From Phytophthora colocasiae (Eukaryota; Oomycota; Peronosporomycetes; Peronosporales; Peronosporaceae), in assembly GCA_018806915.1 (NCBI GenBank), contig JAGKQI010000098.1, positions 2,170,001 through 2,234,000 of the forward strand: a stretch of DNA of 64,000 nucleotides, in the 5' to 3' direction. The notes under the pieces were generated by a model. The model was not told the DNA's origin and did not search any database. It saw only the letters and a program-made list of their open reading frames with translations. How positions within the stretch are numbered: the first letter of the stretch is position 1; each line of letters opens with the position of its first letter. Position numbers and translations under genes: made by a program. This document shows positions 12,606 through 57,046 of the stretch, one piece after another.

Positions 12606-12911
12606 ATACAGCCGCATCAATTCGCGGTGTAAAGTGTTCGTGCTCGCCATGGCTGGTGCCCTTTTACGAATAAGGAAGCAGTAACCCATGAATCGATAAG
12701 TACCTCGGCCTCTGAGTACCAAGTACGACCCAATTGGCAACGTTGCAGTGGTGGGTGGCCAGACCTTTGTAAGTGGCTGAGAGACGCGCTCCAGCAGCTT
12801 CGGGTGCTCATCTTGGTTCACGTCGAAAACCCAAAGAAATGCTTAGAGATACGATTAAGAGCCGTGTTCAGGTAGAGGACACTTGCGTGGAAGGCGCTGC
12901 TACAGCTCCAG

Positions 12912-14725
12912 ATGACGGAACAAACTAATCTACCCAATCTTCTCCAGGAGTTGGACACGTGCCACGAAGAGAACATTGTCACATTAATGTCCTCGATTTT
13001 GGCTCACGTCTTGTGTGGACATGTCAGCGAGATTAGACCTCTCTTGAACAAGCTCCCTGCTCACCGCCGACGGCGGAAGCGTTCTTCAACGCCCACGCTC
13101 GAGCCACCGTGCAACCGACCAGATTTCGCGTCCTGGTTTTCTTTCCAGACACAGACCAACTCGATTCATGCGACATTATCTGTTCATGACCTCGAACAAT
13201 TCCCACACATCCAAACGTGGCAGAATGACGCAGTCAAGCATCAAGCGGAAATGTACCGCTTTTGAGGACAAGACTAGACGAGCACGTACGATCTCCAACT
13301 ACAAGTCAACAATCAACATCTTAAAAGTCAACGCAGAAGACCATGCGAGCGATATCGAGTCCGCGAAGCACGAGCTTGCGTCGCTAGAGAAGGAGGAGAA
13401 GCGGATGATTCGTCGCATGCGGAAGTTTCGACTTTTCCCGACGTCGGAACAACGTAAGCTCTTGCGTCAGTTCATGGGTACGTGTAGGTGGACATACAAC
13501 CAAGCCGTCGCACACTTCCGTAAAACCAACGTTTACAGAGCCGATTAGCTGCGTGACCTGTACGTGACGAAAACTACTGTCAACTACCAGCAAAGAACAG
13601 GTGTCTCCTGAAGACATGGGCCCGCCTCCGGAGTGGGCGTTTGATACTCCAAAAAATTTTCGCTTTAACGCGCTGCGCAGATTTCAGTCCAACGTGAGAA
13701 GCGCCTTTAGTAACAAGAGGAACGGCAAGATCGCAAAGTTCAAGATTGGTTTCAAGAACAAAACAGAGAACCGATTCTTTACGATATGTGAGGATGCCAA
13801 AGATACCAGGATCACTTACGTGCCAGGTCAGTCGCGCGCGTTGTTAAGCATCAGCAAACTGAAGAACATTCCGATTCGTTGCTACCCAGGGCTATCTATC
13901 GCGAACGAGATCCAGGTCTTGAACGACAACGGCTTCTGGTACGCAGCAATCCCTACATTCGTCCGCCCTAGTGATAATGTAAAACTTGGACGCTCTGTGG
14001 CCTTAGACCCCGGTCTGAAAGCCTTCATGACTGGTATGGACCTGTGTGGGAACAGCATTCACATTGGGCGAGGGACACGAGATCAACTGGACAAACTGCG
14101 TGGTAAAGCAGCAGACGCACAGAGGGTAATGGCTGAGATCAAAAATCTGCACGGCCATCGTACGGGCAAGCAATGGAAAACGTATGCGAGAGCCAAGCGA
14201 ACATTTGACCGTGCTACCGCCAAGATCAAGAACTGTGTGAAAGAGCTCCACTACCAGACCTGCGCCTACCTCACGAAGCACTACGACACCATTCTGCTCC
14301 CGATCTTCACGTTGAAGAAAATGGTAAAGAAGAGCTTCACGCGAAATCATACGTTCAACAAGATGCTACTAGGTCTGAAGCACTACCAATTCCAAGAACT
14401 ACTGCGAGCCAAATGTGAGGTAACGGGGAAGTCTTTGGTGGTGTGTTCTGAGATGTACACTACTCAGACTTGCGGAAATTGTTCCAGACTCCGAGTGTTT
14501 GCTGGTGCCCTGTGCTGCGGTGAAACGTCAAAGTCAGTTCGTAAGGCTTACGCTCCGCGTTTGTCTGTTATATCTTGGTGGACGAGTCGTCACCTGCAGA
14601 TTGGCAACAAGGACGCGTTCAATTGTCCACACTGTGATCACATCGCTGGTCGTGATCAGAACGCCGCGTTCAACATCCTTCGTTTCACTTGCGCCGGCTC
14701 CCTGGCAGGTGAACTTACAGCTTAG
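12912..14725 (+). pseudogene. Fanzor (eukaryotic TnpB homologue), broken copy 1
   Basis: Very similar to the intact copy at 18384-20369. The shared start MTEQTNLPNLLQELDTC is at 12912. Lesions relative to copy 2: frame loss near 13060; a 1-nt shift near 13245; an in-frame TAG at 13546-13548 after VYRAD; a 10-nt insertion near 13582; and an in-frame 99-nt insertion at 14492-14590 that splits the zinc ribbon between CGNC and CPHC. From 13601 to the end the frame is open and keeps the RuvC-like residues: Asp in SVALDPGLKAF, Glu in VVCSEMYTTQTCGNC, and Asp in AGRDQNAAFN. The N-terminal OrfB-like helix (KFRLFPTSEQRKLLRQFMG) is also present. Inactive as a full protein. Confidence 0.88.
14492..14590 (+). 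other. 99-bp in-frame insertion in Fanzor copy 1 zinc ribbon
   Basis: Copy 2 reads straight from CSRL to HLKIGNKD. Copy 1 has 33 extra stop-free codons here, between the two Cys pairs. The insert starts CGAGTG and ends ACGAGTCGT. Its origin is unknown. Confidence 0.75.
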
Positions 14726-14764
14726 CTAGAAATAGTTAGACTTTGTTAGACTAACTGTAACGGA
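14723..14764 (+). ncRNA. conserved 3' block of Fanzor copy 1, candidate guide-RNA scaffold or element end
   Basis: This 42-base stretch just after the Fanzor frame matches 18298-18339 (reverse strand) at 41 of 42 positions, although the sequence between the frame end and the block differs in the two copies (about 12 versus 60 bases). It can fold: AGTTAG pairs with CTAACT around ACTTTGTTAGA. Homology between the copies stops right after GTAACGGA, which is the element border or close to it. In characterised Fanzors the guide RNA lies at this end. That assignment here is inference. Confidence 0.45.
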
Positions 14765-17465: not shown

Positions 17466-18302
17466 TCACGCTCCATTCGCCTTCGTCTCACGTAACTTTG
17501 CTGCAAACGTCTCGAACCAAGCCAGACTCTCAGGGTTTTGCAACGCGTTCTTGTTGCTGACTGCATGTCCGTCGATAATTTTCTTGACACTCAATTCCAC
17601 TTTCTTCCCACTCACAGTGTGAGGGATCGCAGGGCAGGCAGTAACCAAGCCAGGCATGTGCCGTGGAGACGCTTGGTCTCGGATCTGCTTCCTCACCTTC
17701 GTCTGGAATACTGTAGTGCACTCGTGTCCGTTCGCCATCACCACAAAGAGGAGAATGCGGACGTCAGGTGTTCCGTCTTTCAAGGTATAGTTCTGTCCAA
17801 CCACCACGGAATCGACCACTTCCTCCATTCTCTCAAGCACCTTGTAGATGTCTGCGGTTCCGATACGGACTCCGCCTGGTTTCAACGTGGCGTCGGAACG
17901 ACCGTAGATGATGATTCCACCACTCTTCGTTACTTCAGCGAAGTCGCCGTGTTTCCAAATATCCGGGAACGTATCGAAGTCTGCAAATTGCTAGTTAGAA
18001 AACGAAATCAAGTAGTTCCAACCAAATTCAACTCACAAGCTCCGTGGTATTTCGCTCCGCTGTCGTCATTCCAAAAGTACAGCGGCGACGGGAATGGCTG
18101 CTTACAGACAAGCTCGCCTTGCTCTTGAAGCATCTCTTCACCATCGTCACTGAAGATACGCACATCCAGCCCCAATCCACGGGTTTGAAGCTCGCTATCA
18201 CACACTAGCACAGAAGAAAACGATTATTCTCAATATACTGTTAGAGGTTGATGAACGCATCTCTTGTTTTGTACCTGGAAGATTGGTGCAGATCAGTTCC
18301 GT
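17466..18302 (-). pseudogene. acetoacetyl-CoA synthetase, C-terminal half (split gene)
   Basis: Exons on minus: 18302-18275 (TELICTNLP), 18204-18037 (CDSELQTRGLGLDVRIFSDD), 17980-17466 (FDTFPDIWKHGDF, IIYGRSDATLKPGGVRIGTADIY, ending in KANGA). Introns are short GT-AG. This is the back half of the adenylate-forming enzyme that makes acetoacetyl-CoA from acetoacetate, and it includes the hallmark GRSDATLKPGGVRIG. The matching front half lies on the same strand at 21150-22304. About 120 residues between them, including the AMP-binding P-loop, are missing; the Fanzor element sits in the gap. The 18302 edge touches the Fanzor 3' border. Confidence 0.85.
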
Positions 18303-18339
18303 TACAGTTGGTCTAACAAAGTCTAACTATTTCTAGCTA
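18298..18339 (-). ncRNA. conserved 3' block of Fanzor copy 2, candidate guide-RNA scaffold or element end
   Basis: On minus, this 42-base block follows the Fanzor stop codon by about 45 bases. It matches the block behind copy 1 (14723-14764) at 41 of 42 positions and can form the same short hairpin (with a G-U pair). It abuts the acetoacetyl-CoA synthetase fragment, so it marks the element's end. Function as guide-RNA part is inferred from Fanzor biology. Confidence 0.5.
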
Positions 18340-18383
18340 GTCTCTGTCGTGGGCTCGCTGTAACCCGAGTTTTATGAGAGGAT

Positions 18384-20369
18384 TCACCGGTGGATGGTGT
18401 GCACTGCCAGGGAGCCGGCGCAGGTGAAACGAAGGATGTTGAACGCGGCGTTCAGATCACGACCAGCGATGAAATCACAGTGTGGACAATTGAACACGTC
18501 CTTGTTGCCAATCTTCAGGTGGAGTCTGGAACAATTTCCGCAAGTCTGAGTAGTGTACATCTCAGAACACACCACCAAAGACTTCCCCATTACCTCGCAT
18601 TTGGCTCGCAGTAGTTCTCGGAATTGGTAGTGCTTCAGACCTAGTAGCATCTTGTTGAACGTATGATTTCTCGCGCAGCTCTTCTTTACCATTTGCTTCG
18701 ACGTGAAGATCGGGAGCAGAATGGTGTCGTAGTGCTTCGTGAGGTAGGCGCAGGTCTGGTAGTGGAGCTCTTTCACACAGTTCTTGATCTTGGCAGTTGC
18801 ACAGTCAAATGTTCGCTTGGCTCTCGCGAACGTTTTCCATTGCTTGCCCGTACGATGGCCGTGCAGATTCTTGATCTCAGCCATTACCCTCTGTGCGTCA
18901 GCTACTTTACCACGCAGTTTGTCCAGGTGATCTCGGGTCCCTCGCCCAATGTGAATGCTGTTCCCGCACAGGTCCACACCAGTCATGAAGGCTTTCAGTC
19001 CAGGGTCTAAGGCCACTGCGCGTCCAAGATTCACAGTATCACTAGGGCGGACGAATGTAGGGATTGCCGCATACCAGAAGCCGTTGTCGTTCAAGATTTG
19101 GATCTCGTTCGCGATAGATAGCCCTGGGTCGCACCGAATCGGAATGTCCTTCAGTTTGCTGATGCTCAACAACGCGCGCGACTGACCTGGCACGTAGGTG
19201 ATCCTGGCATCTTTGGCATCCTCACATATCGTAAAGAATCGGCTCTCTTTCTTGTTCTTGAAATTAATCTTGAACTTTGCGATGTTGCCGTTCCTCTTGT
19301 TGCTAAATGCGCTTCTCACGTTGGACTGAAATTTGCGAAGTGCGTTAAAGCGGAAGTTTTTTGGAGTATCAAACGCCCACTCCGGAGGCGGGCCCATGTC
19401 TTCAGGATACACTTGTTCTTTGCTGGTAGTTTTCGTCACGTACAGGTCACGCAGCGAATCGGCTCTGTAAACGTTGGTTTTACGGAAGTGTGCGACGGCT
19501 TGGTTGTATGTCCACCTACATGTACCCATGAACTGACGCAAGAGCTTGCGTTGTTCCGACGTCGGGAACAGTCGAAACTTTCGAATGCGACGAATCATTT
19601 GCTTCTCTTCCTTCTCTAGCGACGCCAGCTCATGCCTCGCGGACTCGATATCACTCGCATGGTCTTCAGCGTTGACTTTTAAGATGTTGATTGTTGACTT
19701 GTAGTTGGAGATAGTACGTGCTCGTCTAGCCTTGTCCTCAAACGCGGTACATTTTGCTTGATGCTTGACTGCGTCATTCTGCCACGTTTTGACGTGTGGG
19801 AATTGTTCGAGGTCTTGAAGAGACAATGGCGCAGGAATCGAGTTGGTCTGTGTCTGGAAAGAAAACCAGGACGCAAAGTCTGGTCGGTTGGACGGTGGCC
19901 CGAGCGTATCCAGGTTGTGGGCGTCGAAGAACTCTTCCAAAAACCATCGGCGATCAGCAGGGAGCTTGTTCAAGAGCGGTTTAAACTCGCTGACATGTCC
20001 ACACAAGACGTGAACCAAAATCGAGGACAGTAACGTGACAATGTTCTCTTCCTGGCACGTGTCCAACTCCTGGAGAAGATTCGGTAGATTAGTTTGTTCC
20101 GTCATCTGTAGCTGTAGCAGCGCCTTCCACGCAAGTGTCTTCCACCTGAACACGGCGCTTAATCGTATCTCTAAGCATTTCGTTGGGTTTTCGACGTGAA
20201 CGAAGATGAGCACCCGAAGCTGCTGGAGCGCGTTTTGCAGCCGCATACGAAGGCTTCGCCACCCACCACTGCGACGTTGGCATTTAGGTCGTACTTGGCA
20301 CTCAGAGGCAGAGCTTGCTTCTTCTAAATGCCGTATTTGGCAGGACCGATCGTGACCTACGTCGTCCAT
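18384..20369 (-). CDS. Fanzor, RNA-guided nuclease-like protein (intact copy 2)
   Basis: A 661-residue open frame; a shorter start at 20105 (MTEQTNLPNLL, 573 residues) is shared with copy 1 and may be the real one. Fanzors are eukaryotic relatives of the IS200/605 TnpB nucleases, the ancestors of Cas12, and several have been shown to be RNA-guided DNA endonucleases. Seen here: the OrfB-like N-terminal helix (KFRLFPTSEQRKLLRQFMG), RuvC-I Asp455 in AVALDPGLKAF, RuvC-II Glu603 in VVCSEMYTTQTC, a four-Cys zinc ribbon CGNC...CPHC, and RuvC-III Asp638 in AGRDLNAAFN. The Asp/Glu/Asp triad and zinc ribbon are intact. No intron is needed. The gene lies inside a broken acetoacetyl-CoA synthetase gene. 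Numbering is from 20369. Confidence 0.9.
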   Translation of the reverse strand: MDDVGHDRSCQIRHLEEASSASECQVRPKCQRRSGGWRSLRMRLQNALQQLRVLIFVHVENPTKCLEIRLSAVFRWKTLAWKALLQLQMTEQTNLPNLLQELDTCQEENIVTLLSSILVHVLCGHVSEFKPLLNKLPADRRWFLEEFFDAHNLDTLGPPSNRPDFASWFSFQTQTNSIPAPLSLQDLEQFPHVKTWQNDAVKHQAKCTAFEDKARRARTISNYKSTINILKVNAEDHASDIESARHELASLEKEEKQMIRRIRKFRLFPTSEQRKLLRQFMGTCRWTYNQAVAHFRKTNVYRADSLRDLYVTKTTSKEQVYPEDMGPPPEWAFDTPKNFRFNALRKFQSNVRSAFSNKRNGNIAKFKINFKNKKESRFFTICEDAKDARITYVPGQSRALLSISKLKDIPIRCDPGLSIANEIQILNDNGFWYAAIPTFVRPSDTVNLGRAVALDPGLKAFMTGVDLCGNSIHIGRGTRDHLDKLRGKVADAQRVMAEIKNLHGHRTGKQWKTFARAKRTFDCATAKIKNCVKELHYQTCAYLTKHYDTILLPIFTSKQMVKKSCARNHTFNKMLLGLKHYQFRELLRAKCEVMGKSLVVCSEMYTTQTCGNCSRLHLKIGNKDVFNCPHCDFIAGRDLNAAFNILRFTCAGSLAVHTIHR

Positions 20370-20497
20370 ACGACCCGTGCAACGGCACGGAGCGGTTCCC
20401 CCGTCCAGACCCTCTTGTTTATGACTTGGAATATTTGAAAGTGAGGAGGGTTGGCACCAAAGTTGCAGTTGTAGGCTTCGCCCTGTCGAGCGAAGGG

Positions 20498-20564
20498 CAT
20501 GGAGAGTCTAACGTGAGTTGGTGGGTTCTGATACAACCCACCAACTCACGTTAGACTCTCCATG
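20498..20564. repeat. perfect 30-bp inverted repeat, 7-base loop
   Basis: Arms 20498-20527 and 20535-20564 are exact reverse complements (CATGGAGAGTCTAACGTGAG... outward) around the loop CTGATAC. It lies upstream of the Fanzor start and shares the words AGTCTAAC and AGTTGG with the Fanzor 3' block. It could be a terminal structure of the element or a transcription or recombination hairpin. Confidence 0.85.
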
Positions 20565-20759
20565 ATTCCTAGTGCCAGTTAAATTGTTTCTTATGGGCCT
20601 CGAGTACCTTTCTGTACGAGACCCTGACTGGGGTTCCTCGCTAAATCTGTTTCTGCTTGAAGCTTTTAAGCCACGGCCGTGATGGCAGCATTCCTGACAG
20701 TCTGCTTTTCGCTGTGATTGATCCCCGGTGGAGTTGCCCTTAGCGATCTATTCCCCACA
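20565..20759. other. short stretch, nothing recognised
   Basis: Lies between the hairpin and the transporter fragment; no frame or repeat of note. Confidence 0.4.
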
Positions 20760-21160
20760 TCACGCGGTGTAGTGTTTCGTAGGGATGAACTTGTACGTTA
20801 CGAGTGCACCAAGGAGAGAGACCGTCGCACTGAGAATCAAGAGGTGTGATACGCCAAAGTGAGCTTCAACAATGCCAAATGATGCTGCTCCGACTGCAGC
20901 GCCGAGCTTTCCGATCGCCGCAGCAACTCCATTGAGCTCGACGCGCACGTCTTCCGGGAAAATCTCGGCGGGGAGGCAAAATGTGCCAACATTTGGTCCA
21001 AAATTCGCGAAGAAGAAGGTGAGTATCAGTCCCCTGTTATCCAGTAATTGCTCGTAGAAGAATCCAAGAGCCATGAAAAGCAACGCCATGATGACGAAAC
21101 CCATGATTTGAATGGTCTTGAAGCTGAGCTTGCCGACAATAAGTACACGAGGAGCAGTAA
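20760..21160 (-). pseudogene. MFS phosphate-symporter-like transporter, C-terminal fragment
   Basis: On minus the frame reads FTAPRVLIVGKLSFKTIQIMGF, then hydrophobic helices with FANFGPNVGTF and a PAEIFPEDVR motif, GKLGAAVGAASFG, and a last helix ending in KHYTA at 20760. This is the back of a major facilitator of the phosphate:H+ symporter (PHO84-like) type. The front is absent: upstream of about 21160 the sequence becomes acetoacetyl-CoA synthetase in another frame. It is a truncated, displaced gene piece. Confidence 0.7.
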
Positions 21161-21170
21161 ACTGCTCCTC
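21147..21170. repeat. 11-bp hairpin at the gene-fusion junction
   Basis: CGAGGAGCAGT-AA-ACTGCTCCTCG forms a perfect hairpin exactly where the acetoacetyl-CoA synthetase frame (DLSKIRGA) gives way to the transporter frame. The symmetry may be the mechanism or the scar of the rearrangement, or chance. Confidence 0.6.
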
Positions 21171-22304
21171 GAATCTTGGACAGATCCAAATCCTGCGCGT
21201 CTGCTATGGTAAAGCGAAAAATCACCACTTTCTCCACCGTCGGCAAGTCGTCGATGATTTTCTTCAGTTGGGGAAAGATGTCGATTCGGTGTCCTTTATA
21301 GAAGTAGCCGTCCGTCGTGAAGACAACCTTCGGTGTGATCTAGTGATAGAAATGTAAGTTTTCAAGTGAACAATTCAGCGAAAGTATTATAAAAGTATAC
21401 ACAAACCTGAGCGAAGCGATCCAAAACGCCTTGGGCGCCGAAGTCGGGCGAACAGCTGGACCAGATAGCTCCAAGACTGGTAGTAGCAAGCATCGCAATG
21501 ATCGCCTCGGGGATATTCGGGATGAAAGCTGCAACCCGATCACCAGCAACAACACCCATCTTTACCAATTGCGCAGAAAGCCTTGCTACTCGATCATACA
21601 GCTCTTTGTACGTGATCGTCAGTTCTTGGTTGCTAGTCTCAGCCTTGAAAATGATCGCAGGGCGGTCATCTCGAAAACGCAGCAAATTCTCCGCAAAATT
21701 CAGCCGAGCACCCGGGAAAAACTTGGCACCTTCAACACTCAAGTATGAGTACGAGCCCCACAGCCAAAAAATAGATTTGTTATCAACCTGGCATCTTCTC
21801 CTTGTCTTCAATCACTTTTGTGTATGGCTGCGATGAAACCATCCCCGTAAAGTCCCAACACTGCACCAACATATTAGTCTTTATGACATCACTCCACCCA
21901 AACTATCATCCCTCCCACCATTCCCCAGAAGTACTCGAGATTGTCCACTGACCACTGCCAGAGCTCCTGCGGTGTCTTCAGCGCCAACCTAAACACAATT
22001 CCCCTCCTCATTAGCACCTCCCCCTCATTTAGCAACAAATTACGACTTTCTCACTTAAACCGGTCATTCACAAGCTGTGTGAACTTTGTCCAGTTGGAAG
22101 AAGCCAGGAGATCCGATGGTGGCGTCCACACTGAGCATTGACACATCATCCAAACAGACAGAAACGGGTTAATACTGTTCATTGTCACAATGGATAAATT
22201 ACACAATAATAAGCTGACATACAAGGAGCTTCCTCCTCCTCTTCCTTCGCTCTCTTAGCGTCGATAGCAGGAGATTCGTCCCCCTTGCGCTTGCCCAGCA
22301 CCAT
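21150..22304 (-). pseudogene. acetoacetyl-CoA synthetase, N-terminal half (split gene)
   Basis: ATG at 22304 (MVLGKRKGDESPAIDAKRAK). Exons on minus: 22304-22223; 22130-22055 (VWTPPSDLLASSNWTKF); 21988 to about 21930 (LALKTPQELWQW); one with FTGMVSSQPYTKV; a long one with [20 protein letters not shown] and [20 protein letters not shown]; then after a GT-AG intron ITPKVVFTTDGYFYKGH and VEKVVIFRFTIADAQDLDL. The frame fails at about 21150 where a transporter fragment begins. The front half looks healthy, with consistent short introns, so the break is probably recent. The back half is at 17466-18302. Confidence 0.85.
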
Positions 22305-22444: not shown

Positions 22445-25400
22445 TTAAACGAGTGATACTGCTGCTTCGGATAGACGTGGACGGCCCAGGAAGGCTCGCG
22501 CGGCGGCATTTACTGCCATGTTGTTGTTCTGACGGTTATGTCCCATGGCTGTCATTCTCGCTACAGCTCGGAAGGTCGGACGTGCCGAAGCTCGAGGTGC
22601 GTTGAATGACGCGTTGGTCGTCATGTTGTCCTGTACACGTCCAAGTAGCTGCATGAAGCTTGAATTAAATCCAAGTTCCGGTGTGAAGTGCAGCAGCTCG
22701 AGACGCGAGAGCGTGTAGTGCTTGTCAAGCGGAATCTCCATGTCGTTGAGCATAATCGGCAAGATAGGCTTGCCCTTGTCTTCAGCGAACGCCAACTGAT
22801 CCTTCACGAGCTCACTGTTGACGGTCTTCCGGGATAGCACCACGATGAACACTTCGCACTTGAGAATGGCCTCTTTGGCAGCGTGGATGCGCTCCGTCAT
22901 ATCTACGTACGTCTGTGTACCATCCATGAGGCACTTGACGTGGTTATCGTGCAGCCGGTCGTGCAGACGCTTGACGAAGCTGTGGTGGTGGTCCCCGTGC
23001 GAGACAAACGCGAACTGAATGTTGTCCAGAGTGGCGGGGTCCCAATCCGCCACGTTCTCACCGAAACCGACCACGCTCGTTCCATTACCCAGTCGACGTC
23101 GACTACCACTGACAATGTTCGCCTCGCGGTGCTTCTCAATCTCATCACGCACTCCATCCAGTAGCAGACGGAATTGGGCTGCAAAGCGATCCTCGTCGTA
23201 CTCAAACGTGATCTTGCGCTTGTTTGAGTTGTTGATGCTCTTGATAGCGGACTCGAATGGCACCATTTGCCGCGTGTAGATGTACACTTGCATCTCTTCA
23301 GTGACTGCGGCGCCTTCCGGAGACACAGCGATGATGGGTTTACCGAGCTGCTTGGCAAGCGCCAATTCCTTGAGACACCATTCGGACACAGGATAGTCCT
23401 CGGTGTACAAGCAAATAATTACCTCAGCATTCTTAATGCCACGCGCGATTTCTTCACGCCACACCGAGCCGCCACCGATGCCAGTAGGGTCCATGAGGTC
23501 AAGCCAAGACGTAATGTTAGCACGCTCGAGACTGTCGCGGATTTTGAGCGCAAATTCACTGTGAGAGTGAGTGTAGCTGATCATGACGTCACGATCACCC
23601 GCGGCTTGTTTGATCTCGAATTGCAGCTGCGTCGACGTCGTGCAGTCCACAGGACGGTAACCATCGCGGTTTGTTTCCATCACATCTGCTCCCGCGTCGA
23701 GCAGCGCCAATGCAGTTCCCTTCTGTTCGCACTTCATTGCAATGTGAAGAGCTGTATCGCCGTTGGGAAGGCGGTCGTCAATATCTGCTCCATGCTCGAC
23801 GAGGCAATCAAAAAGATCGGCGCTCACGTTTTTGGAGGAAGCTGCACATAACAAAGGAGTGTGGTCCCGGTAATCCCGCAAGTTCACATCCGCCCCCTTG
23901 TCGAGTAAAAGACGAACCACTTGTGGCTTATTCACACGAGCAGCCCAGTGCAGCGATGATCGACCGAAAATGTCCTGGAAGTCTGGATCGGACCCAGCTT
24001 CAAGCAGCACACAGACTGCATTGACCGCGCCGTTAATGGCAGCCCAGTGCAAGGGCGTGCGGCGGTGCATGCCTGTATACCCGTATTCACCCACACAGTT
24101 CGGATCAGCGCCAGTCTTCAGCAGCTTCTTGATAGCTGTGACGTTATCTTTGGCTGCAGCCTCATGGAGCGGCGTGAGGGCCACATCAGCGCCCCATTCT
24201 TCCAGTTCATGAGCTACGGGGAAGTTACCACGCATGTAAGCCATCTGCAACACTGTGAGTGTGTTCATATGTCCTGGGTCGGGGACTTCAAGGTGGTTGG
24301 CTCCAGCTTCGAGAAGCAGCGTCACAATATCTGGGTTATCAGCTACAAAGAGTGGCGGCATGCGGTCCGACCAGTAAGAAGCCTTGGACTTGAGATTCAC
24401 GTTGACACCATGTTCGATAAGCCACTGGACGGCCTGGATTTGCCCTGTGCTGACAGCACAATGTAGCGGTGTCACGAGCGTCGTGCGGAAGATAGAGGCG
24501 GCCATTTCATCTTCAGACGTAAACGGTTTGGTCACGAAGATCTGCGCAAACATCCAGAAGAGATCGCCAGTCGTAAAGCGCACACGGGATACTTTGTCGT
24601 AGCTATCCACACGGAATCCAGCTTCAAACAGTAGCTGGAGAGCTTGAACGTTGCCTAAGTACGCGGCCACGTGGATCGGATTCTTCTTGGAGCGACCGAA
24701 GAGCTTGAAGACAAGTTTGGCGTCACTGTACATCTCATGGGCGAAGTCCGTGCCCAAGCGCTCTTTGGCGTACTCCAACAGCGTCTCCATCTTAGCCACA
24801 TTTCCAAGTGATGTCTCCTTGTACAGGTGCTTGCGCAGGTCGTTGATCACTCGTGAACGCTCCGACTTGTATCTACTGCGTTTTCTTTGCAGTCTTGATC
24901 GGATCCCGCCCGTTTGGTCCGTTTCCTTGAACGCTCCAAGCTGCATACTCAAATGTTCTCGGAATCGCGCGAAGTACGTGAGAACAACGAAGTTCGCGAA
25001 GAACGTGACCACCGCGAACGCCACGTATAGAATGGCACGTGCTCGACTGCAATGGAAGTTGTTCCCTTGGAAAATAGCGTAGACAAAGTATAAAATCACC
25101 AGCAGACTGAACACCAGCACCACAACACTCAACAGCTCACAGAACTGGAAGAACACGGAGCGTTGAATCTTCTGACGACCGCCGCCATCTCTCCGTCGCC
25201 GGAAGGGTTCAAATATCCTCAAGCCTGAAGCTGGAAGCCCAATCAGCACCAATAACGGAGCGACGTGATACACAAGCATAGCGTACACTACAATAGTGTC
25301 ACATGCTCCACAATAGTCCGTGTCATCAATACACTCGTTCGTCTTGGTGCGGTGGAAGGCCAACGCGTAGCCCACGTCCTCCACATAAACCCCTCCATAG

Positions 25401-25774
25401 GCGATATCCTTGGACGCCCAGAAGATCACAATACCAGTAATACCTAACGCTGCCACTAGCAACGTGCTCATACGTAGACGCCACGTAAAATACGAGTTAC
25501 GGCCATATCCCGGGCCTAAGAAGGTGTTGGGGAGCTGTTTGGGTGTGCCGCGCGGCACTACCGCCACTTCGTCTTCCATATCACCCAGTTCCATCACAGC
25601 TTCGTCCGTAGACCCACTGGGTAGTGGTGTAGGCGCTAATGACGCTTTGTCAGTGGAAGCCGCGGGTACAGTCGTGGATTGGCGCTGGGAGCTGCGACGA
25701 CTTACACGCTCAGCGCCGTGACCCGAGAACGAGCTCTGCTCCGGTAGTGCGTGGTAGTCTGCAGCCTCCGTCAT
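22445..25774 (-). CDS. membrane protein with ankyrin repeats and two C-terminal TIR domains
   Basis: The ATG at 25774 gives 1109 residues. Order: a Ser/Thr-rich cytosolic start; four hydrophobic helices (about 104-119, 160-180, 208-234, 246-268); about 350-720 ankyrin repeats (NPIHVAAYLGNVQALQLLFE, TPLHEAAAKDNVTAIKKLL, TPLHWAAINGAV); TIR1 from about 725 (DRDVMISYTHSHSEFALKI); TIR2 from about 916 (FAFVSHGDHHHSFVKRL). TIR1 has the SEWCLKELALA helix with Glu803 at the place of the NAD-cleaving glutamate of SARM1-type TIRs; TIR2 aligns without gaps but has Gln993 there. TIR domains act in immunity and cell death through NAD hydrolysis or scaffolding. Which applies here is inference. Uninterrupted, no intron. 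Confidence 0.9.
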   Translation of the reverse strand: MTEAADYHALPEQSSFSGHGAERVSRRSSQRQSTTVPAASTDKASLAPTPLPSGSTDEAVMELGDMEDEVAVVPRGTPKQLPNTFLGPGYGRNSYFTWRLRMSTLLVAALGITGIVIFWASKDIAYGGVYVEDVGYALAFHRTKTNECIDDTDYCGACDTIVVYAMLVYHVAPLLVLIGLPASGLRIFEPFRRRRDGGGRQKIQRSVFFQFCELLSVVVLVFSLLVILYFVYAIFQGNNFHCSRARAILYVAFAVVTFFANFVVLTYFARFREHLSMQLGAFKETDQTGGIRSRLQRKRSRYKSERSRVINDLRKHLYKETSLGNVAKMETLLEYAKERLGTDFAHEMYSDAKLVFKLFGRSKKNPIHVAAYLGNVQALQLLFEAGFRVDSYDKVSRVRFTTGDLFWMFAQIFVTKPFTSEDEMAASIFRTTLVTPLHCAVSTGQIQAVQWLIEHGVNVNLKSKASYWSDRMPPLFVADNPDIVTLLLEAGANHLEVPDPGHMNTLTVLQMAYMRGNFPVAHELEEWGADVALTPLHEAAAKDNVTAIKKLLKTGADPNCVGEYGYTGMHRRTPLHWAAINGAVNAVCVLLEAGSDPDFQDIFGRSSLHWAARVNKPQVVRLLLDKGADVNLRDYRDHTPLLCAASSKNVSADLFDCLVEHGADIDDRLPNGDTALHIAMKCEQKGTALALLDAGADVMETNRDGYRPVDCTTSTQLQFEIKQAAGDRDVMISYTHSHSEFALKIRDSLERANITSWLDLMDPTGIGGGSVWREEIARGIKNAEVIICLYTEDYPVSEWCLKELALAKQLGKPIIAVSPEGAAVTEEMQVYIYTRQMVPFESAIKSINNSNKRKITFEYDEDRFAAQFRLLLDGVRDEIEKHREANIVSGSRRRLGNGTSVVGFGENVADWDPATLDNIQFAFVSHGDHHHSFVKRLHDRLHDNHVKCLMDGTQTYVDMTERIHAAKEAILKCEVFIVVLSRKTVNSELVKDQLAFAEDKGKPILPIMLNDMEIPLDKHYTLSRLELLHFTPELGFNSSFMQLLGRVQDNMTTNASFNAPRASARPTFRAVARMTAMGHNRQNNNMAVNAAARAFLGRPRLSEAAVSLV

Positions 25775-25788
25775 GGCTCGACGGCGTG

Positions 25789-25808
25789 AGAGAGAGAGAG
25801 AGAGAGAG
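25789..25808. repeat. (AG)10 microsatellite in 5' leader of TIR gene
   Basis: Ten AG units lie 15 bases upstream of the ATG on the minus strand (as CT repeats in the leader), a likely length-variable site. Confidence 0.9.
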
Positions 25809-25874
25809 CGGAGGGATCCGATGTAGATGTCACGCACGGAGCAAGTCTCGTAATGCGGTTCTTAGAAAGTGAAT

Positions 25875-45723: not shown

Positions 45724-47040
45724 ACTTCAAAAATTCGCGCTCAAACGCGTGCTTTCTTAACTTCACCACCAAGTTTCTGCGTTACTTCTACCGCGCTGAT
45801 TAGCTTGATAACCAAGATGCTGCAACTAGAACACGACTGACAATTAGTTGCATCAGGTCCACCAAAGCTGAAGATCCGATCGCATCTTGAGACAGACGAC
45901 TCGTCTGCGAGCTGATCAAGATCGCGACAATTCAGCGATCGGAAGTTGAGTCCGAAACAACGCTGCAACTGATCCCGTCCTCTTCCGTCCATCGAGCTGC
46001 GCTTCGCCCACGCATTTTACACTCATTCGCAACGTACCAAGGCAATCAATGCTCGCCTCAAGTTCAGCTCCAGTCCGCCGCCGCCACCCTCAAACGCAAG
46101 CTTCACCCCTCCACTCATCCGCTGGCGAAAATGACGCCCAGCTGGCCTGAGCACAAACATCGAGTGAAGCCTGACGGATTTCAGCCTGCGGTCGCTCTTT
46201 GCATGCAGAGACGGACGGAGGCAGGCAACTTGTGTATGGGCGTTCGCTTGGACGAGCGTCTTGGCGACGGAGAATGATGGTCGCGCCGTGTAAGGTGCGC
46301 GCAAACGCCTACCGCGCATGGTCGGAATTACGGTCGCCGCGCCGGTTTAACGGCTCCTTACCGCAATCGGATACTTTTGGCGTGTACCGACGGTCTGTCG
46401 TCGGCAGATAGCTACGAGTGTCATGGGCAGTTCGTCGCCACAAGCGCCCCCCGGCATCGCCTCCAGGCTTTTGGATCCACTGGAGGTCAGCACATCACGT
46501 GCTGTTTGTTGCGGCGACTGTCGAGTCCAGGTTAGCGCCGATACAAAGGTCAAGTGCGGGGTGGCCGGCTCCAATTGACACGGAAGGGGCAGCGATGATG
46601 CCCCAGCCCGAAACCTAGCTGTGCGCGTAAAGCTGGCCCGTCGCTGGCCTTGATCGCTCGCACACTCTACAGTGTCGCACTTTCACAGTTTCACACGGAT
46701 TCTGTCAAACAGTGGAGGCGATCGGGGCAGTACACGCTGTCATTAGCATCTTGTCAAGGATACAGCGCGATACTGCGCCAGTACTTGTATATATACGACG
46801 TGCTGTGTCTACATATTTGCTGCTGTCGAGACAAAGGTTCTCTACGGACACCAAAGTGTAGTGACCAAAGCTGTGAGTCAACCGAGCGGAGGGTAGGGTT
46901 ATTGCGTCAACGGGTGTGCGCGCAATCCGGCCGGGGCATCTACGCGCGCGTGGATGATGCCCGGTGCTTCGCTCTCTTTTTTTGCCAGCGGTACGTCGGT
47001 TGTCGCTCCTTGTCGGGCGTGGTCCTGCACACAAGTGAGC
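45724..47040. other. spacer upstream of ABC copy B (palindrome arm)
   Basis: No gene is recognised; it is matched by 59630-60935 in reverse. The open frames seen on both strands are conserved only because the arms are near-identical. A (CA)n run lies at about 47082-47096 in the leader after the promoter. Confidence 0.6.
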
Positions 47041-47041
47041 C

Positions 47042-47060
47042 AGTCATTCCTGAATTTGCG
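47042..47060 (+). promoter_or_regulatory. oomycete core promoter of ABC copy B
   Basis: AGTCATTCCTGAATTTGCG, Inr plus flank, about 90 bases before the ATG at 47151. The same element stands before copy C on the other arm. Confidence 0.6.
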
Positions 47061-47150
47061 CGGCGAGCGCGACATTCACCACTACACACACACACATACG
47101 AGTGCGGAGCTGCAGCAGATAGATACTTAACCGTAGCGAGACCACTCCCG

Positions 47151-50100
47151 ATGTCAGACCAGCAGGAGAGGACCCCGGGCCACGAGTCCGGCGCGGCACT
47201 CATGGCGTACGGGCCGGAGGTGCTGCACGACTACGTGGCCACACGCTTCGAGGCGGCACTGGGCCGCACCATGCCACAGATGGAAGTGCGCTTCAACAAC
47301 CTGTCGATCGCCGCCGACGTCGTGGTGGTCGAAGAAGACGAGAACAAAACGGAGCTGCCGACGATCTGGAACACAGCCAAGAAGGGCCTGGCCAAGCTGT
47401 CGGCCAAGAAGCACGTGGTGCGCAAGGAGATCCTGCGCAACGCCAGCGGCGTGCTCAAGCCGGGCACCATCACGCTGGTGCTGGGCCAGCCCGGATCGGG
47501 CAAGTCGTCGCTCATGAAGGTGCTGAGCGGCCGCTTTCCGCTCGAGAAGAACGTGACGATCGAGGGCGACGTGACGTACAACGGCGTGGCACAGGCCGAG
47601 ATCATGCGTCGCCTGCCGCAGTTCGTGGCGTACGTGACGCAGCGCGACAAACACTTCCCGACGCTGACGGTGAAGGAGACGCTCGAGTACGCGCACCGGT
47701 TCTGCGGCGGCGAGATGTCGAAGCGCGCCGAGGAGAAGCTGTCGAAGGGAACGGCCGAGGAGAACCAGGCCGCGTTGGAGGCAGCCAAGGCGCTGTTCGC
47801 GCACTACCCGGACGTGGTGATCCAGCAGCTCGGACTGGACAACTGCCAGGACACGATCGTGGGCAACGGTATGATGCGCGGCGTGTCGGGCGGTGAACGC
47901 AAGCGCGTGACGACCGGCGAGATGGAGTTCGGCATGAAGTACGTGACGCTCATGGACGAGATCAGCACGGGTCTTGACAGCGCGGCGACATTCGACATTA
48001 TCAAGACACAGCGCAGTATCGCCAAAAAGCTGCAGAAGACCGTGGTGATCGCGTTGTTGCAGCCAGCGCCGGAGGTGTTCGAGCTGTTCGACGACGTGAT
48101 CATCCTGAACGAGGGTGAGGTGATGTACCATGGCCCGCGCGAGCAAGTGGTGGGCCATTTCGAGAGCCTGGGGTTCAAGTGTCCGCCCGAGCGTGATGTG
48201 GCGGACTACCTTTTGGATCTGGGAACGAACCAGCAGTACAGATACGAGGCATCGCTGCCGTCTGGCTTGGCGCACCACCCGCGCCTGGCGAGTGAGTTCG
48301 CGGAGCACTACCGCCGTTCGAGCATCCACCGTGACATGCTCGCTGCGCTGGAAGCTCCGTATGACCCGGAGCTGCTGGAGAACGTGAGCAACGATATCGA
48401 CCCGATGCCCGAGTTCCATCAGTCGTTCTGGGACAATACATGGACGCTGATGGAGCGCCAGAACAAGGTGACCATGCGCAACACGGCGTTCCTGAAGGGC
48501 CGTGGCATCATGGTGATCGTCATGGGTCTGGTGAACGCGTCAACGTTCTGGAACGTGGACCCTGTGAATGTGCAGGTGCTGTTGGGCGTGCTGTTCCAGG
48601 CGGTGCTGTTCCTGTCGCTGGGCCAGGCCTCCCAGATCCCGACGTTCATGGCCGCGCGTGACATCTTTTACAAGCAGCGCGGCGCCAACTTCTACCGCAC
48701 GGCGTCGTACGTGCTTTCGTGCTCGGTGTCGCAGGTGCCGCTGGCGTTTGCGGAGACCATCGTGTTTGGCCCGCTGGTGTACTGGCTGTGCGGCTTCGTG
48801 TCGTCGGCTAGCGCGTTCATCGTCTACTTGATCATGCTGATGCTGACGAACCTGGCGTTCGCGGCGTGGTTCTTCTTCATCGCGTCGATTTCGCCGGACC
48901 TTCACGTGTCGAAGCCTATCGCCATGATCACGATCCTGTTCTTCGTGCTGTTCGCGGGTTTCATCGTGGCGAAGAGCCAAATGCCCGACTGGCTGGTGTG
49001 GATCTACTGGATTGACCCGATCGCGTGGTGCCTGCGCGCGTTGGCTGTGAACCAGTACCGCTCGTCGATCTTTGAGGTGTGCCTGTACGAGGGTGTGGAC
49101 TACTGCTCGCAGTTCGGCATGTACATGGGCGAGTACTACCTGTCGATGTACGATGTGCCGTCGGCGAAGACGTGGATCATTTACGGCATCATCTTCATGA
49201 TCGTGGCGTACGTGGTGTTCATGTTCCTGGGCTGCCTGGTGCTGGAGTACAAGCGTTACGAGAGCCCGGAGCACACGATTCTGACGAAGAAGACGGTGGA
49301 CGAGAACGAGGCTGGCAGCTACGCGCTGGTAGCAACCCCGAAGAAGAGCAAGTCGCCTGCTGATGGCGAGGCGTTCGTGGTTGAAGTGAAGGAGCGCGAG
49401 AAGAACTTCGTGCCGGTGACGGTGGCATTCCAGGACTTGTGGTACTCTGTGCCGAACCCGAAGAACCCGAAGGAGAGCTTGGATCTACTGAAGGGCGTGA
49501 GCGGAGTTCGCGATGCCCGGCTCGGTGACGGCTCTGATGGGGTCGTCGGGTGCTGGTAAGACGACGCTGATGGACGTGATTGCCGGTCGCAAGACGGGTG
49601 GCACGATCAAGGAAAGATCCTGTTGAACGGCTACGATGCGAACGACCTGGCCATCCGCCGTTGCACGGGCTACTGTGAGCAGATGGACGTGCACTCGGAG
49701 GCTTCCACGTTCCGTGAGGCATTCACTTTCAGCGCGTTCCTGCGTCAGGACAGCAGTGTGCCGGACAGCAAGAAGTACGACTCGGTGGACGAGGTGCTGG
49801 ACCTGCTAGACATGCACGACATCGCCGACCAGATCATTCGCGGCAGCTCGGTGGAGCAGATGAAGCGTCTGACAATTGGTGTGGAGCTTGCTGCTCAACC
49901 GAGTGTGATCTTCCTGGATGAGCCTACGAGCGGACTGGACGCTCGCTCGGCGAAGCTGATCATGGATGGTGTCCGCAAGGTGGCAGACAGTGGCCGAACC
50001 ATTGTGTGCACGATCCACCAGCCTTCGACGGAGGTGTTCTACCTGTTCGACAACCTGCTGCTTCTGAAGCGCGGCGGAGAGACTGTGTTCGTGGGCGAGC

Positions 50101-51268
50101 TCGGTGAGAAGTGCCGTAAGCTGGTGGAATACTTCGAATCGATCCCGGGTGTGTCTCCTCTTGTGAAGGGCTACAACCCGGCGACATGGATGCTGGAAGT
50201 GATCGGCGCTGGTGTGGGTCATGCCGCTGGCACGACGAACTTTGTGCAGGCATTCAAGGACAGCGAGGAGAAGCGTATCTTGGACGCGAACCTGGCGAAG
50301 GAAGGCGTGACGATCCCGTCGCCGGACTTCCCGGAGATGGTGTTCACGAAGAAGCGCGCTGCGAGCTCGATGACACAGGCCCGATTCCTGATCGGTCGCT
50401 TCCTGGACATGTACTGGCGCACGCCATCGTACAACCTGACCCGCTTTGTGGTGACGTTCTTGCTGGCACTGGTGTTCGGTCTGCTGTTCCTGGACGGTGG
50501 GTACACGAGCTACCAGGGCATCAACGGTGGCGTGGGCATGGTATTCATGACGACACTGTTTAACGGTATCGTGTCGTTCAACAGCGTGCTTCCTATCTCG
50601 TGCGAGGAGCGCGAGTCGTTCTACCGCGAGCGCGCGGCTCAGACGTACAACGCGCTGTGGTACTTCGTGGGCTCGACGGTGGCGGAGATCCCGTACGTGT
50701 TCGCGAGCGGCTTCATCTTCACGTTCGTGTGGTTCTTCATGGTGGGTTTCACTGGCTTCGGCACGGCGTTTGCTGTACTGGGTGAACATCTCGCTGCTGA
50801 TCCTGTTGCAGACATACATGGGTCAGTTCTTGGCGTACGCGTTGCCTAGCGTGGAGGTTGCTGCGATCATCGGTGTGTTGATGAACTCCATCTTCTTCCC
50901 TGTTCATGGGCTTTAACCCTCCTGCGAACGCGATCCCGAGCGGCTACAAGTGGCTGTACGCCATCACGCCTCAGCGGTACCCGTTGGCGATCCTCGGGTC
51001 GCTGGTGTTCGGTCAGTGCGACGTGGACCCTACGTGGAACGAGAGCACGCAGGCGTACGAGAATGTTGGCTCGCAGCTCGGTTGTCAGCCGGTGACGGGC
51101 CTGCCAGTGTCGATCGACCATATCACGGTGAAGGGGTACGTGGGCTCTGTGTTCGGCATGCACCACTCGGACATGTGGGCGCAATTCGGCTACGTGTTCA
51201 TCTTCATCGCGGTGTTCCGTGTGCTGGCGCTGCTGTCACTGCGCTTCCTGAACCACCAGAAGAGATAA
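47151..51268 (+). pseudogene. PDR-type ABC transporter, palindrome copy B (four 1-nt indels)
   Basis: Starts MSDQQERTPGHESGAALMAYG, with NBD1 GQPGSGKSS, VSGGERKRVT and LMDEISTGLDSAA, TMD1, NBD2 [13 protein letters not shown] and FLDEPTSGLDARSAK, TMD2, ending FLNHQKR at 51268. Against copy C it has +1 near 49505, -1 near 49614, +1 near 50769 and +1 near 50897. These sum to +2, exactly the length difference (4118 versus 4116). The last three lie in G, T and C runs, the classic place for sequencing error. If they are errors, this is an intact 1371-residue exporter; if real, a very young pseudogene. Confidence 0.85.
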
Positions 51269-52910: not shown

Positions 52911-55900
52911 TGGACAGGGGCGCCGTTTTCGTCAGAGTTATGCATCATTATAGCATTGTCTTTCAGCTCGTCGTCATTACAAGAAGAAAAAGAAGATGTT
53001 AACTCTGTAAATTACCATGCAGTGTATTTTGTTCAAAAGTTTGGTCTAAGGACGGGAGACTTGATTCCCCCTAATACTAACACCCGTGTGCCCGTTTATC
53101 TCTTCTGGTGGTTCAGGAAGCGCAGTGACAGCAGCGCCAGCACACGGAACACCGCGATGAAGATGAACACGTAGCCGAATTGCGCCCACATGTCCGAGTG
53201 GTGCATGCCGAACACAGAGCCCACGTACCCCTTCACCGTGATATGGTCGATCGACACTGGCAGGCCCGTCACCGGCTGACAACCGAGCTGCGAGCCAACA
53301 TTCTCGTACGCCTGCGTGCTCTCGTTCCACGTAGGGTCCACGTCGCACTGACCGAACACCAGCGACCCGAGGATCGCCAACGGGTACCGCTGAGGCGTGA
53401 TGGCGTACAGCCACTTGTAGCCGCTCGGGATCGCGTTCGCAGGAGGGTTAAAGCCCATGAACAGGAAGAAGATGGAGTTCATCAACACACCGATGATCGC
53501 AGCAACCTCCACGCTAGGCAACGCGTACGCCAAGAACTGACCCATGTATGTCTGCAACAGGATCAGCAGCGAGATGTTCACCCAGTACAGCAACGCCGTG
53601 CCGAAGCCAGTGAAACCCACCATGAAGAACCACACGAACGTGAAGATGAAGCCGCTCGCGAACACGTACGGGATCTCCGCCACCGTCGAGCCCACGAAGT
53701 ACCACAGCGCGTTGTACGTCTGAGCCGCGCGCTCGCGGTAGAACGACTCGCGCTCCTCGCACGAGATAGGAAGCACGCTGTTGAACGACACGATACCGTT
53801 AAACAGTGTCGTCATGAATACCATGCCCACGCCACCGTTGATGCCCTGGTAGCTCGTGTACCCACCGTCCAGGAACAGCAGACCGAACACCAGTGCCAGC
53901 AAGAACGTCACCACAAAGCGGGTCAGGTTGTACGATGGCGTGCGCCAGTACATGTCCAGGAAGCGACCGATCAGGAATCGGGCCTGTGTCATCGAGCTCG
54001 CAGCGCGCTTCTTCGTGAACACCATCTCCGGGAAGTCCGGCGACGGGATCGTCACGCCTTCCTTCGCCAGGTTCGCGTCCAAGATACGCTTCTCCTCGCT
54101 GTCCTTGAATGCCTGCACAAAGTTCGTCGTGCCAGCGGCATGACCCACACCAGCGCCGATCACTTCCAGCATCCATGTCGCCGGGTTGTAGCCCTTCACA
54201 AGAGGAGACACACCCGGGATCGATTCGAAGTATTCCACCAGCTTACGGCACTTCTCACCGAGCTCGCCCACGAACACAGTCTCTCCGCCGCGCTTCAGAA
54301 GCAGCAGGTTGTCGAACAGGTAGAACACCTCCGTCGAAGGCTGGTGGATCGTGCACACAATGGTTCGGCCGCTGTCTGCCACCTTGCGGACACCATCCAT
54401 GATCAGCTTCGCCGAGCGAGCGTCCAGTCCGCTCGTAGGCTCATCCAGGAAGATCACACTCGGTTGAGCAGCAAGCTCCACACCAATTGTCAGACGCTTC
54501 ATCTGCTCCACCGAGCTGCCGCGAATGATCTGGTCGGCGATGTCGTGCATGTCTAGCAGGTCCAGCACCTCGTCCACCGAGTCGTACTTCTTGCTGTCCG
54601 GCACACTGCTGTCCTGACGCAGGAACGCGCTGAAAGTGAATGCCTCACGGAACGTGGAAGCCTCCGAGTGCACGTCCATCTGCTCACAGTAGCCCGTGCA
54701 ACGGCGGATGGCCAGGTCGTTCGCATCGTAGCCGTTCAACAGGATCTTTCCCTTGATCGTGCCACCCGTCTTGCGACCGGCAATCACGTCCATCAGCGTC
54801 GTCTTACCAGCACCCGACGACCCCATCAGAGCCGTCACCGAGCCGGGCATCGCGAACCCGCTCACGCCCTTCAGTAGATCCAAGCTCTCCTTCGGGTTCT
54901 TCGGGTTCGGCACAGAGTACCACAAGTCCTGGAATGCCACCGTCACCGGCACGAAGTTCTTCTCGCGCTCCTTCACTTCAACCACGAACGCCTCGCCATC
55001 AGCAGGCGACTTGCTCTTCTTCGGGGTTGCTACCAGCGCGTAGCTGCCAGCCTCGTTCTCGTCCACCGTCTTCTTCGTCAGAATCGTGTGCTCCGGGCTC
55101 TCGTAACGCTTGTACTCCAGCACCAGGCAGCCCAGGAACATGAACACCACGTACGCCACGATCATGAAGATGATGCCGTAAATGATCCACGTCTTCGCCG
55201 ACGGCACATCGTACATCGACAGGTAGTACTCGCCCATGTACATGCCGAACTGCGAGCAGTAGTCCACACCCTCGTACAGGCACACCTCAAAGATCGACGA
55301 GCGGTACTGGTTCACAGCCAACGCGCGCAGGCACCACGCGATCGGGTCAATCCAGTAGATCCACACCAGCCAGTCGGGCATTTGGCTCTTCGCCACGATG
55401 AAACCCGCGAACAGCACGAAGAACAGGATCGTGATCATGGCGATAGGCTTCGACACGTGAAGGTCCGGCGAAATCGACGCGATGAAGAAGAACCACGCCG
55501 CGAACGCCAGGTTCGTCAGCATCAGCATGATCAAGTAGACGATGAACGCGCTAGCCGACGACACGAAGCCGCACAGCCAGTACACCAGCGGGCCAAACAC
55601 GATGGTCTCCGCAAACGCCAGCGGCACCTGCGACACCGAGCACGAAAGCACGTACGACGCCGTGCGGTAGAAGTTGGCGCCGCGCTGCTTGTAAAAGATG
55701 TCACGCGCGGCCATGAACGTCGGGATCTGGGAGGCCTGGCCCAGCGACAGGAACAGCACCGCCTGGAACAGCACGCCCAACAGCACCTGCACATTCACAG
55801 GGTCCACGTTCCAGAACGTTGACGCGTTCACCAGACCCATGACGATCACCATGATGCCACGGCCCTTCAGGAACGCCGTGTTGCGCATGGTCACCTTGTT

Positions 55901-57046
55901 CTGGCGCTCCATCAGCGTCCATGTATTGTCCCAGAACGACTGATGGAACTCGGGCATCGGGTCGATATCGTTGCTCACGTTCTCCAGCAGCTCCGGGTCA
56001 TACGGAGCTTCCAGCGCAGCGAGCATGTCACGGTGGATGCTCGAACGGCGGTAGTGCTCCGCGAATTCGCTCGCCAGGCGCGGGTGGTGCGCCAAGCCAG
56101 ACGGCAGTGGCGCCTCGTATCTGTACTGCTGGTTCGTTCCCAGATCCAAGAGGTAGTCCGCCACATCACGCTCGGGCGGACACTTGAACCCCAGGCTCTC
56201 GAAATGGCCCACCACTTGCTCGCGCGGGCCATGGTACATCACCTCACCCTCGTTCAGGATGATCACGTCGTCGAATAGCTCGAACACCTCCGGCGCCGGC
56301 TGCAACAACGCGATCACCACGGTCTTCTGCAGCTTTTTGGCGATACTGCGCTGTGTCTTGATAATGTCGAATGTCGCCGCGCTGTCAAGACCCGTGCTGA
56401 TCTCGTCCATGAGCGTCACGTACTTCATGCCGAACTCCATCTCGCCGGTCGTCACGCGCTTGCGTTCACCGCCCGACACGCCGCGCATCATACCGTTGCC
56501 CACGATCGTGTCCTGGCAGTTGTCCAGTCCGAGCTGCTGGATCACCACGTCCGGGTAGTGCGCGAACAGCGCCTTGGCTGCCTCCAACGCGGCCTGGTTC
56601 TCCTCGGCCGTTCCCTTCGACAGCTTCTCCTCGGCGCGCTTCGACATCTCGCCGCCGCAGAACCGGTGCGCGTACTCGAGCGTCTCCTTCACCGTCAGCG
56701 TCGGGAAGTGTTTGTCGCGCTGCGTCACGTACGCCACGAACTGCGGCAGGCGACGCATGATCTCGGCCTGTGCCACGCCGTTGTACGTCACGTCGCCCTC
56801 GATCGTCACGTTCTTCTCGAGCGGAAAGCGGCCGCTCAGCACCTTCATGAGCGACGACTTGCCCGATCCGGGCTGACCCAGCACCAGCGTGATGGTGCCC
56901 GGCTTGAGCACGCCGCTGGCGTTGCGCAGGATCTCCTTGCGCACCACGTGCTTCTTGGCCGACAGCTTGGCCAGGCCCTTCTTGGCTGTGTTCCAGATGG
57001 TCGGCAGCTCCGTTTTGTTCTCGTCTTCTTCGACCACCACGACGTC

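Follow-up and report, generated by a model that had tools for sequence, protein, structure and literature searches.

Fanzor2 proteins have already been described in the genus Phytophthora, where Bao and Jurka distinguished in 2013 one family each for P. sojae, P. capsici and P. ramorum (PMC3627910). As portrayed in the published accounts, Fanzor proteins carry a fingerprint made of a DPG motif and an alternative glutamate located six residues ahead of the zinc finger (PMC10711439), and a helix-turn-helix of the OrfB type opens the core of some TnpB and Fanzor2 proteins (PMC3627910). Serine recombinases accompany only some Fanzor2 elements, and Fanzor1 has been described in Helitron2 elements with intact 3' ends and duplications of 7-19 bp (PMC3627910); Fanzor1 ghost loci were reported in 2023 (PMC10432273). 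Here we describe a Fanzor2-type nuclease gene, and the multicopy element that carries it along with a candidate guide RNA, in a stretch of 64,000 nucleotides (nt) of the oomycete Phytophthora colocasiae (assembly GCA_018806915.1, contig JAGKQI010000098.1, positions 2,170,001 to 2,234,000), hereafter the window.

The family found in the window is of the same protein class and from the same genus as the known Phytophthora Fanzor2 families, with which it was compared by description only (PMC3627910). With the IS607 TnpB, pro-Fanzor and Fanzor2 systems outlined in PMC10711439 it has in common the DPG motif and alternative glutamate, a right-end GG and a pseudoknotted right-end RNA (a candidate here), whereas it differs from the IS607 systems described there in that both element and genome are without a serine recombinase. 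As in the Spizellomyces Fanzor1 elements, no transposase was found and copies lacking the open reading frame (ORF) keep the guide-RNA end (again a candidate here), but the Spizellomyces elements are described with Fanzor1 and terminal inverted repeats, in contrast to the Fanzor2 and exact right end only seen here (PMC10432273). The Chlamydomonas Helitron2 elements CRe-1/2/3 with Fanzor1 likewise show intact 3' ends with variable 5' ends and duplication lengths, but are described with Helitron ends and targets instead of a CGG end and GG-headed repeats (PMC3627910). Among the titles and abstract openings of the open-licence literature, no report of a guide RNA, ghosts or insertion sites of a Phytophthora Fanzor was found.

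The nuclease gene and its protein

18384..20369, minus strand: Fanzor2-type nuclease ORF of 661 amino acids, with D455, E603, D638 and the zinc ribbon CGNC..CPHC

The initial annotation had proposed an intact Fanzor frame with three RuvC-like acidic residues and a zinc ribbon, and the ORF check agreed, with 661 uninterrupted codons on the minus strand (20369 to 18384). Asp455, Glu603 and Asp638 stand exactly at the positions it had given, and the motif scan fits the published Fanzor pattern: D455 lies within ALDPG (the DPG motif in RuvC1), and residues 603-638 fit E-x6-CxxC..CxxC-..-D, with E603 in RuvC2, a C4 zinc ribbon and D638 in RuvC3. The zinc ribbon was recovered by Pfam as a TNB zinc-ribbon domain at residues 580-645 (2.7e-17). 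An OrfB-like helix had also been claimed at the N-terminus; the helix-turn-helix was detected (PF12323, residues 258-294, 4.7e-11), with its position refined: it begins at residue 258, behind an extension of 257 residues that precedes the TnpB-like core and for which Pfam gave no match. Membership in the TnpB/Fanzor group was supported by the NCBIfam model NF040570 (RNA-guided endonuclease TnpB family), which matched residues 264-647 with 135.4 bits (3e-39) against a cut-off of 100 bits.

Foldseek and VIA searches with the predicted structure, in which mainly residues 258-658 were compared, returned Fanzor2 and TnpB proteins (a two-lobe fold with a RuvC nuclease), in line with the RuvC fold expected from the initial annotation. 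The best fold match was the mimivirus Fanzor2 (L79, PDB 9b0l), which is the nearest solved relative by sequence, profile and fold; identity in the structural alignment is about 19%, and the N-terminal extension is longer in the window protein. We take this mimivirus protein to belong to an IS607-type element. The Fanzor1 protein SpuFz was matched by fold at only 1.8e-4 and was missing from the sequence matches listed. The fingerprint, the NF040570 match and the mimivirus Fanzor2 as nearest solved relative are the grounds for assigning the protein to the Fanzor2 type. The window ORF is a genuine Fanzor2-type nuclease gene that has been under selection, and the multicopy element on which it lies also holds a candidate guide RNA; RNA-guided nuclease activity of its product is plausible as a prediction from sequence.

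Names were available for 15 of 20 protein relatives, every one of them from Phytophthora or Nothophytophthora. An alignment including three metagenomic relatives matched 1480 proteins, the best 120 of which were mostly nameless and came without genomic context. A search of viral and prokaryote collections with alignment A1 gave no confirmed relative, but its patterns were narrow and the result says little. Three database proteins with Fanzor domains (P0003, P0010 and P0014) are named for, or fused to, a carrier, kinase or other domain; these names and fusions are probably gene-model errors across insertions.

Copies, families and past selection

Searching the genome (92.5 Mb, 105 contigs) with the protein gave a list of 72 matched stretches, many of them partial and a number with stops. 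Residues 1-661 are covered at four places, of which three are stop-free (the window copy, C100:2135798 and C100:2056032) and the fourth has a single TAG; the places outside the window are 97%, 95% and 92% identical in amino acids to the window ORF. Compared pairwise, the three stop-free copies give ratios of nonsynonymous to synonymous substitution rates (dN/dS) of 0.16, 0.33 and 0.25, which fall to 0.10, 0.22 and 0.15 when restricted to residues 258-661, the differences among these three copies being mainly synonymous. Full-length copies of 92-97% identity, and the mainly synonymous differences among those without stops, indicate that the window ORF is more than a chance reading frame.

12681..14764 (approximate limits), plus strand: second copy of the window family (family A), in pieces, with stops, frame breaks and extra bases in the zinc-ribbon region

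The sister copy that the initial annotation had seen nearby is therefore present but broken, and the two other stop-free full-length copies lie outside the window. Eight places with family-A pieces fall within C100:2.055-2.386 Mb, and the flanks compared are mostly unrelated; local movement is one reading of this cluster. A second family (family B) is represented here by eight loci (L017-L023 and L025) and is 40-72% identical to the window protein over the matched stretches. Since their flanks are common, the pairs L014/L015 and L023/L025 were taken as one insertion each; L023 and L025 are near-identical duplicates, and L014 (C41:125960-128063) and L015 (C12:83585-85685), whose flanks are identical in the stretches compared, probably represent one insertion on a duplicated or haplotypic contig. 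More distant Fanzor families were seen on other contigs (L045-L053, three families by our own grouping), with DPG and the alternative glutamate in several open frames; their right ends, which differ from that of the window family, read ..AAGGCG and are conserved and noncoding.

Element ends and insertion sites

18299..20470, minus strand: element core common to the copies, with an exact right end at 18299 and a left limit at 20470 common to L009-L011
20498..20564, no strand assigned: left-leader hairpin with two perfect 30-nt arms separated by 7 nt; the hairpins of other copies have different arms

The element is roughly 2.2 kb long. Its right end finishes ...CTGTAACGG at 18299, reading CGG with the terminal GG at 18299-18300, and is followed by unrelated sequence. 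Among the 28 right-end loci of family A and the ghosts, 26 have the exact CTGTAACGG end (L039 ends in CGA and L041 was unmatched), and an exact right end is present in 7 of 8 family-B loci. Similarity among leaders continues to the left of 20470, where the copies have pieces of a leader in common, and the left leader occurs at 5 places in the genome, all adjoining Fanzor copies. A short-form repeat of the right end (L009:7325-7420) lies directly behind the L009 copy.

To detect target repeats, the sequence preceding the element was scanned in 29 copies for a match to GG followed by the right flank; the duplicate loci L015 and L025 were left out, as were L022, L028, L039, L041 and the broken window copy. 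Four of the 29 have a repeat of at least 10 nt (12 in L017 and L033, 10 in L012 and L036), against 1 of 812 cross-copy controls; the base ahead of GG is G, A, A and A in L017, L033, L012 and L036, respectively. The repeats of L017 and L036 abut the boundary of element homology or extend a few bases across it, and the intact window copy has a 5-nt match only, no better than controls. Without the GG rule the search was noisy (31 copies with a right end), and all four matches of at least 8 nt were preceded by GG. A target motif ending in GG would fit, by analogy with the GGG motif shown for an IS607 TnpB.

Neither the serine recombinase domain PF00239 nor the Y1 (HUH) transposase domain PF01797 had any match in the 92.5-Mb genome or in the element, while the same searches were positive in 10 of 14 and 5 of 14 control genomes, respectively. 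A standard IS607 element is ruled out by the lack of a serine recombinase in element and genome, and the lack of a Y1 transposase speaks against an IS200/IS605 transposon. Helitron and Helentron rules ask for a CTRR end and an A|T target, or for a TT target; the CGG end and GG-headed sites do not conform to them. For each of the three types, IS607, IS605 and Helitron, at least one tested feature of the element does not conform.

Candidate guide RNA and ghost loci

18299..18383, minus strand: noncoding right end, 3' of the stop codon, candidate guide (omega) RNA scaffold
18354..18369, minus strand: hairpin CUCG-GGUUACAG-CGAG; in family B, CCACG-GGUUACAG-CGUGG with the same loop
18358..18364, minus strand: candidate pseudoknot arm 1, GUUACAG, in the loop of the GGUUACAG hairpin and complementary to arm 2
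18301..18307, minus strand: candidate pseudoknot arm 2, CUGUAAC, directly ahead of the terminal GG
18315..18348, minus strand: second hairpin, GACAGAG..CUAGCUA-GAAA-UAGUUAG..CUUUGUU, variable and absent from some copies
18279..18298, minus strand: predicted guide, the first ~20 nt of the flank, from which the flanks of the copies diverge

Families A and B have the same GGUUACAG loop and the same terminus on different stems. In the alignment of the two families (A4; 23 rows, 18 distinct) the candidate pseudoknot arms stay complementary throughout the 18 distinct rows, a G-U pair being needed in one; because the arms are nearly invariant, this shows constraint and not pairing, and covariation is no test of it. 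Paired cells amount to 94.0% in A4, against 28.7-41.0% when the columns are slid by 1-3, and the covariation score is above those of 500 of 500 shuffles. Folding gave a z-score of -4.23 for 18299-18348 and of -2.70 for 18299-18387 (4 of 200 shuffles as good), with a program that cannot model pseudoknots and, in family A, favours a closing stem built from the terminal arms. Rfam returned nothing at gathering thresholds across the whole window. PMC10711439 describes a test of a right-end pseudoknot of similar type in an IS607 TnpB and predicts one for Fanzor2. The flank from 18298 on would serve as the guide, and copy-specific flanks are what such a role would lead one to expect.

The final 126 bases of the element have 29 matches in the genome, all of them in the loci analysed or in the window. 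Seventeen loci (L028-L044) are ghosts, short copies that keep the right end; a piece of the ORF remains in 16 of them and the left-leader motif in 11. In the 15 ghosts compared with the window (L039 and L042 were left out), identity over the aligned part is 89-99% for the 73-nt right end (50-73 nt aligned) and 76-81% for the coding remnant. This better preservation of the right end could reflect constraint or gene conversion.

Proposed function and mobility of the element

We consider it fairly probable that the window carries the gene of a Fanzor2-type RNA-guided DNA nuclease on a compact mobile element without its own transposase. This interpretation draws on the matches in fingerprint and fold, the purifying selection, the exact right end with flanks that differ from copy to copy, and the conserved, foldable end kept by the ghosts. 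The right end would be transcribed as an omega-RNA with the flank as its guide, and the complex would cut the corresponding element-free site of the homologous chromosome, beside a motif ending in GG. With the element-bearing copy as repair template, the element would then be kept or spread, ghosts could use the nuclease protein in trans, and a first insertion at a new site would need an enzyme from elsewhere. Several observations weigh against this interpretation: the structure model is of middling confidence (pLDDT, the predicted local distance difference test, 70.9; pTM, the predicted template modelling score, 0.41), the left end is ragged and without a defined boundary, and 25 of the 29 copies, including that of the window, have no significant GG-headed repeat. 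Moreover, only 2 compensated pairs were counted in A4, a number reached by 153 of 500 shuffles, and both separate family A from family B, whose own right end folds no better than shuffles (z-score -1.26, 20 of 200).

The copies may also have been inserted at GG by an IS607-type recombinase, since lost or missing from the assembly, the family then being the relic of an IS607-type Fanzor2 element with the nuclease as passenger. The right-end GG is the crossover dinucleotide given for IS607 in PMC10711439, and most Fanzor2 proteins are associated with IS607 in the accounts of PMC3627910 and PMC10711439. The IS607-type origin that we take for the mimivirus relative points the same way; the zero count for PF00239, the ragged left ends and, in 4 of 29 copies, repeats of 10-12 nt rather than just GG make such an origin unlikely in our view. 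We are similarly doubtful that rolling-circle (Helitron- or Helentron-like) machinery carried the element along as a passenger, which would explain one-ended insertion in which 3' ends are intact and both 5' ends and duplications vary, as in the Chlamydomonas Fanzor1-bearing Helitron2 described in PMC3627910. Helitron_like_N is plentiful in the genome (150 scored matches; none of the 14 control genomes gave one) and left hairpins are present, but the end is CGG and not CTRR, the targets start with GG and not with A|T or TT, and the left leader was found beside Fanzor copies only. A decayed family, with nuclease activity gone and the window ORF intact by chance or recency, would agree with the many partial or stop-bearing stretches and the broken second copy; it appears improbable in view of the dN/dS of 0.16-0.33, although selection reports on the past only, and of the catalytic residues retained in relatives such as P0001-P0003. 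Very unlikely, finally, is a transposase-free element whose own nuclease would make the insertion breaks, with precise joining of the right end after a target GG, sealing of the left end by error-prone, fold-back-prone repair, and ghosts that spread by borrowing the nuclease in trans; such repair of the left end would account for the variable leaders, the gene scraps and the 10-12 nt repeats.

The role of Fanzor for its carrier elements and the movement of elements with a Fanzor ORF only are raised as open questions in PMC10432273 and PMC3627910. Since Fanzor2 has been known from Phytophthora since 2013 and Fanzor ghosts since 2023, the nuclease is one more Fanzor2 and no new type, but a good test case. 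With its stop-free copies, 17 ghosts, exact right end, compact candidate guide RNA and predicted GG-ending motif, the family makes guide use, target motif and homing directly testable.

Genes around the element

Within 17466-21811 of the window the element interrupts a gene for an AMP-binding enzyme, presumably an acetoacetyl-CoA synthetase: the N-terminal part is found on one side, the C-terminal part on the other, and the middle is missing. The predicted guide flank from 18298 adjoins this gene. Scraps of the same gene also lie just upstream of two other Fanzor copies (L011:4143-4254 and L010:3662-3754; 124 and 103 columns), one of them inverted. A piece of a sugar-transporter/MFS gene (20760-21104, minus strand) is located in the gap between the element and the portion encoding the N-terminus of this enzyme. 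Further on, a large ORF (22445-25837, minus strand) combines ankyrin repeats with two TIR-domain stretches, a pairing that is, to our knowledge, unusual in an oomycete. Two near-identical ABC-transporter-like ORF regions, of PDR type by eye, stand in opposite orientation about 6 kb apart at 46650-50849 (plus strand) and 53096-57040 (minus strand).
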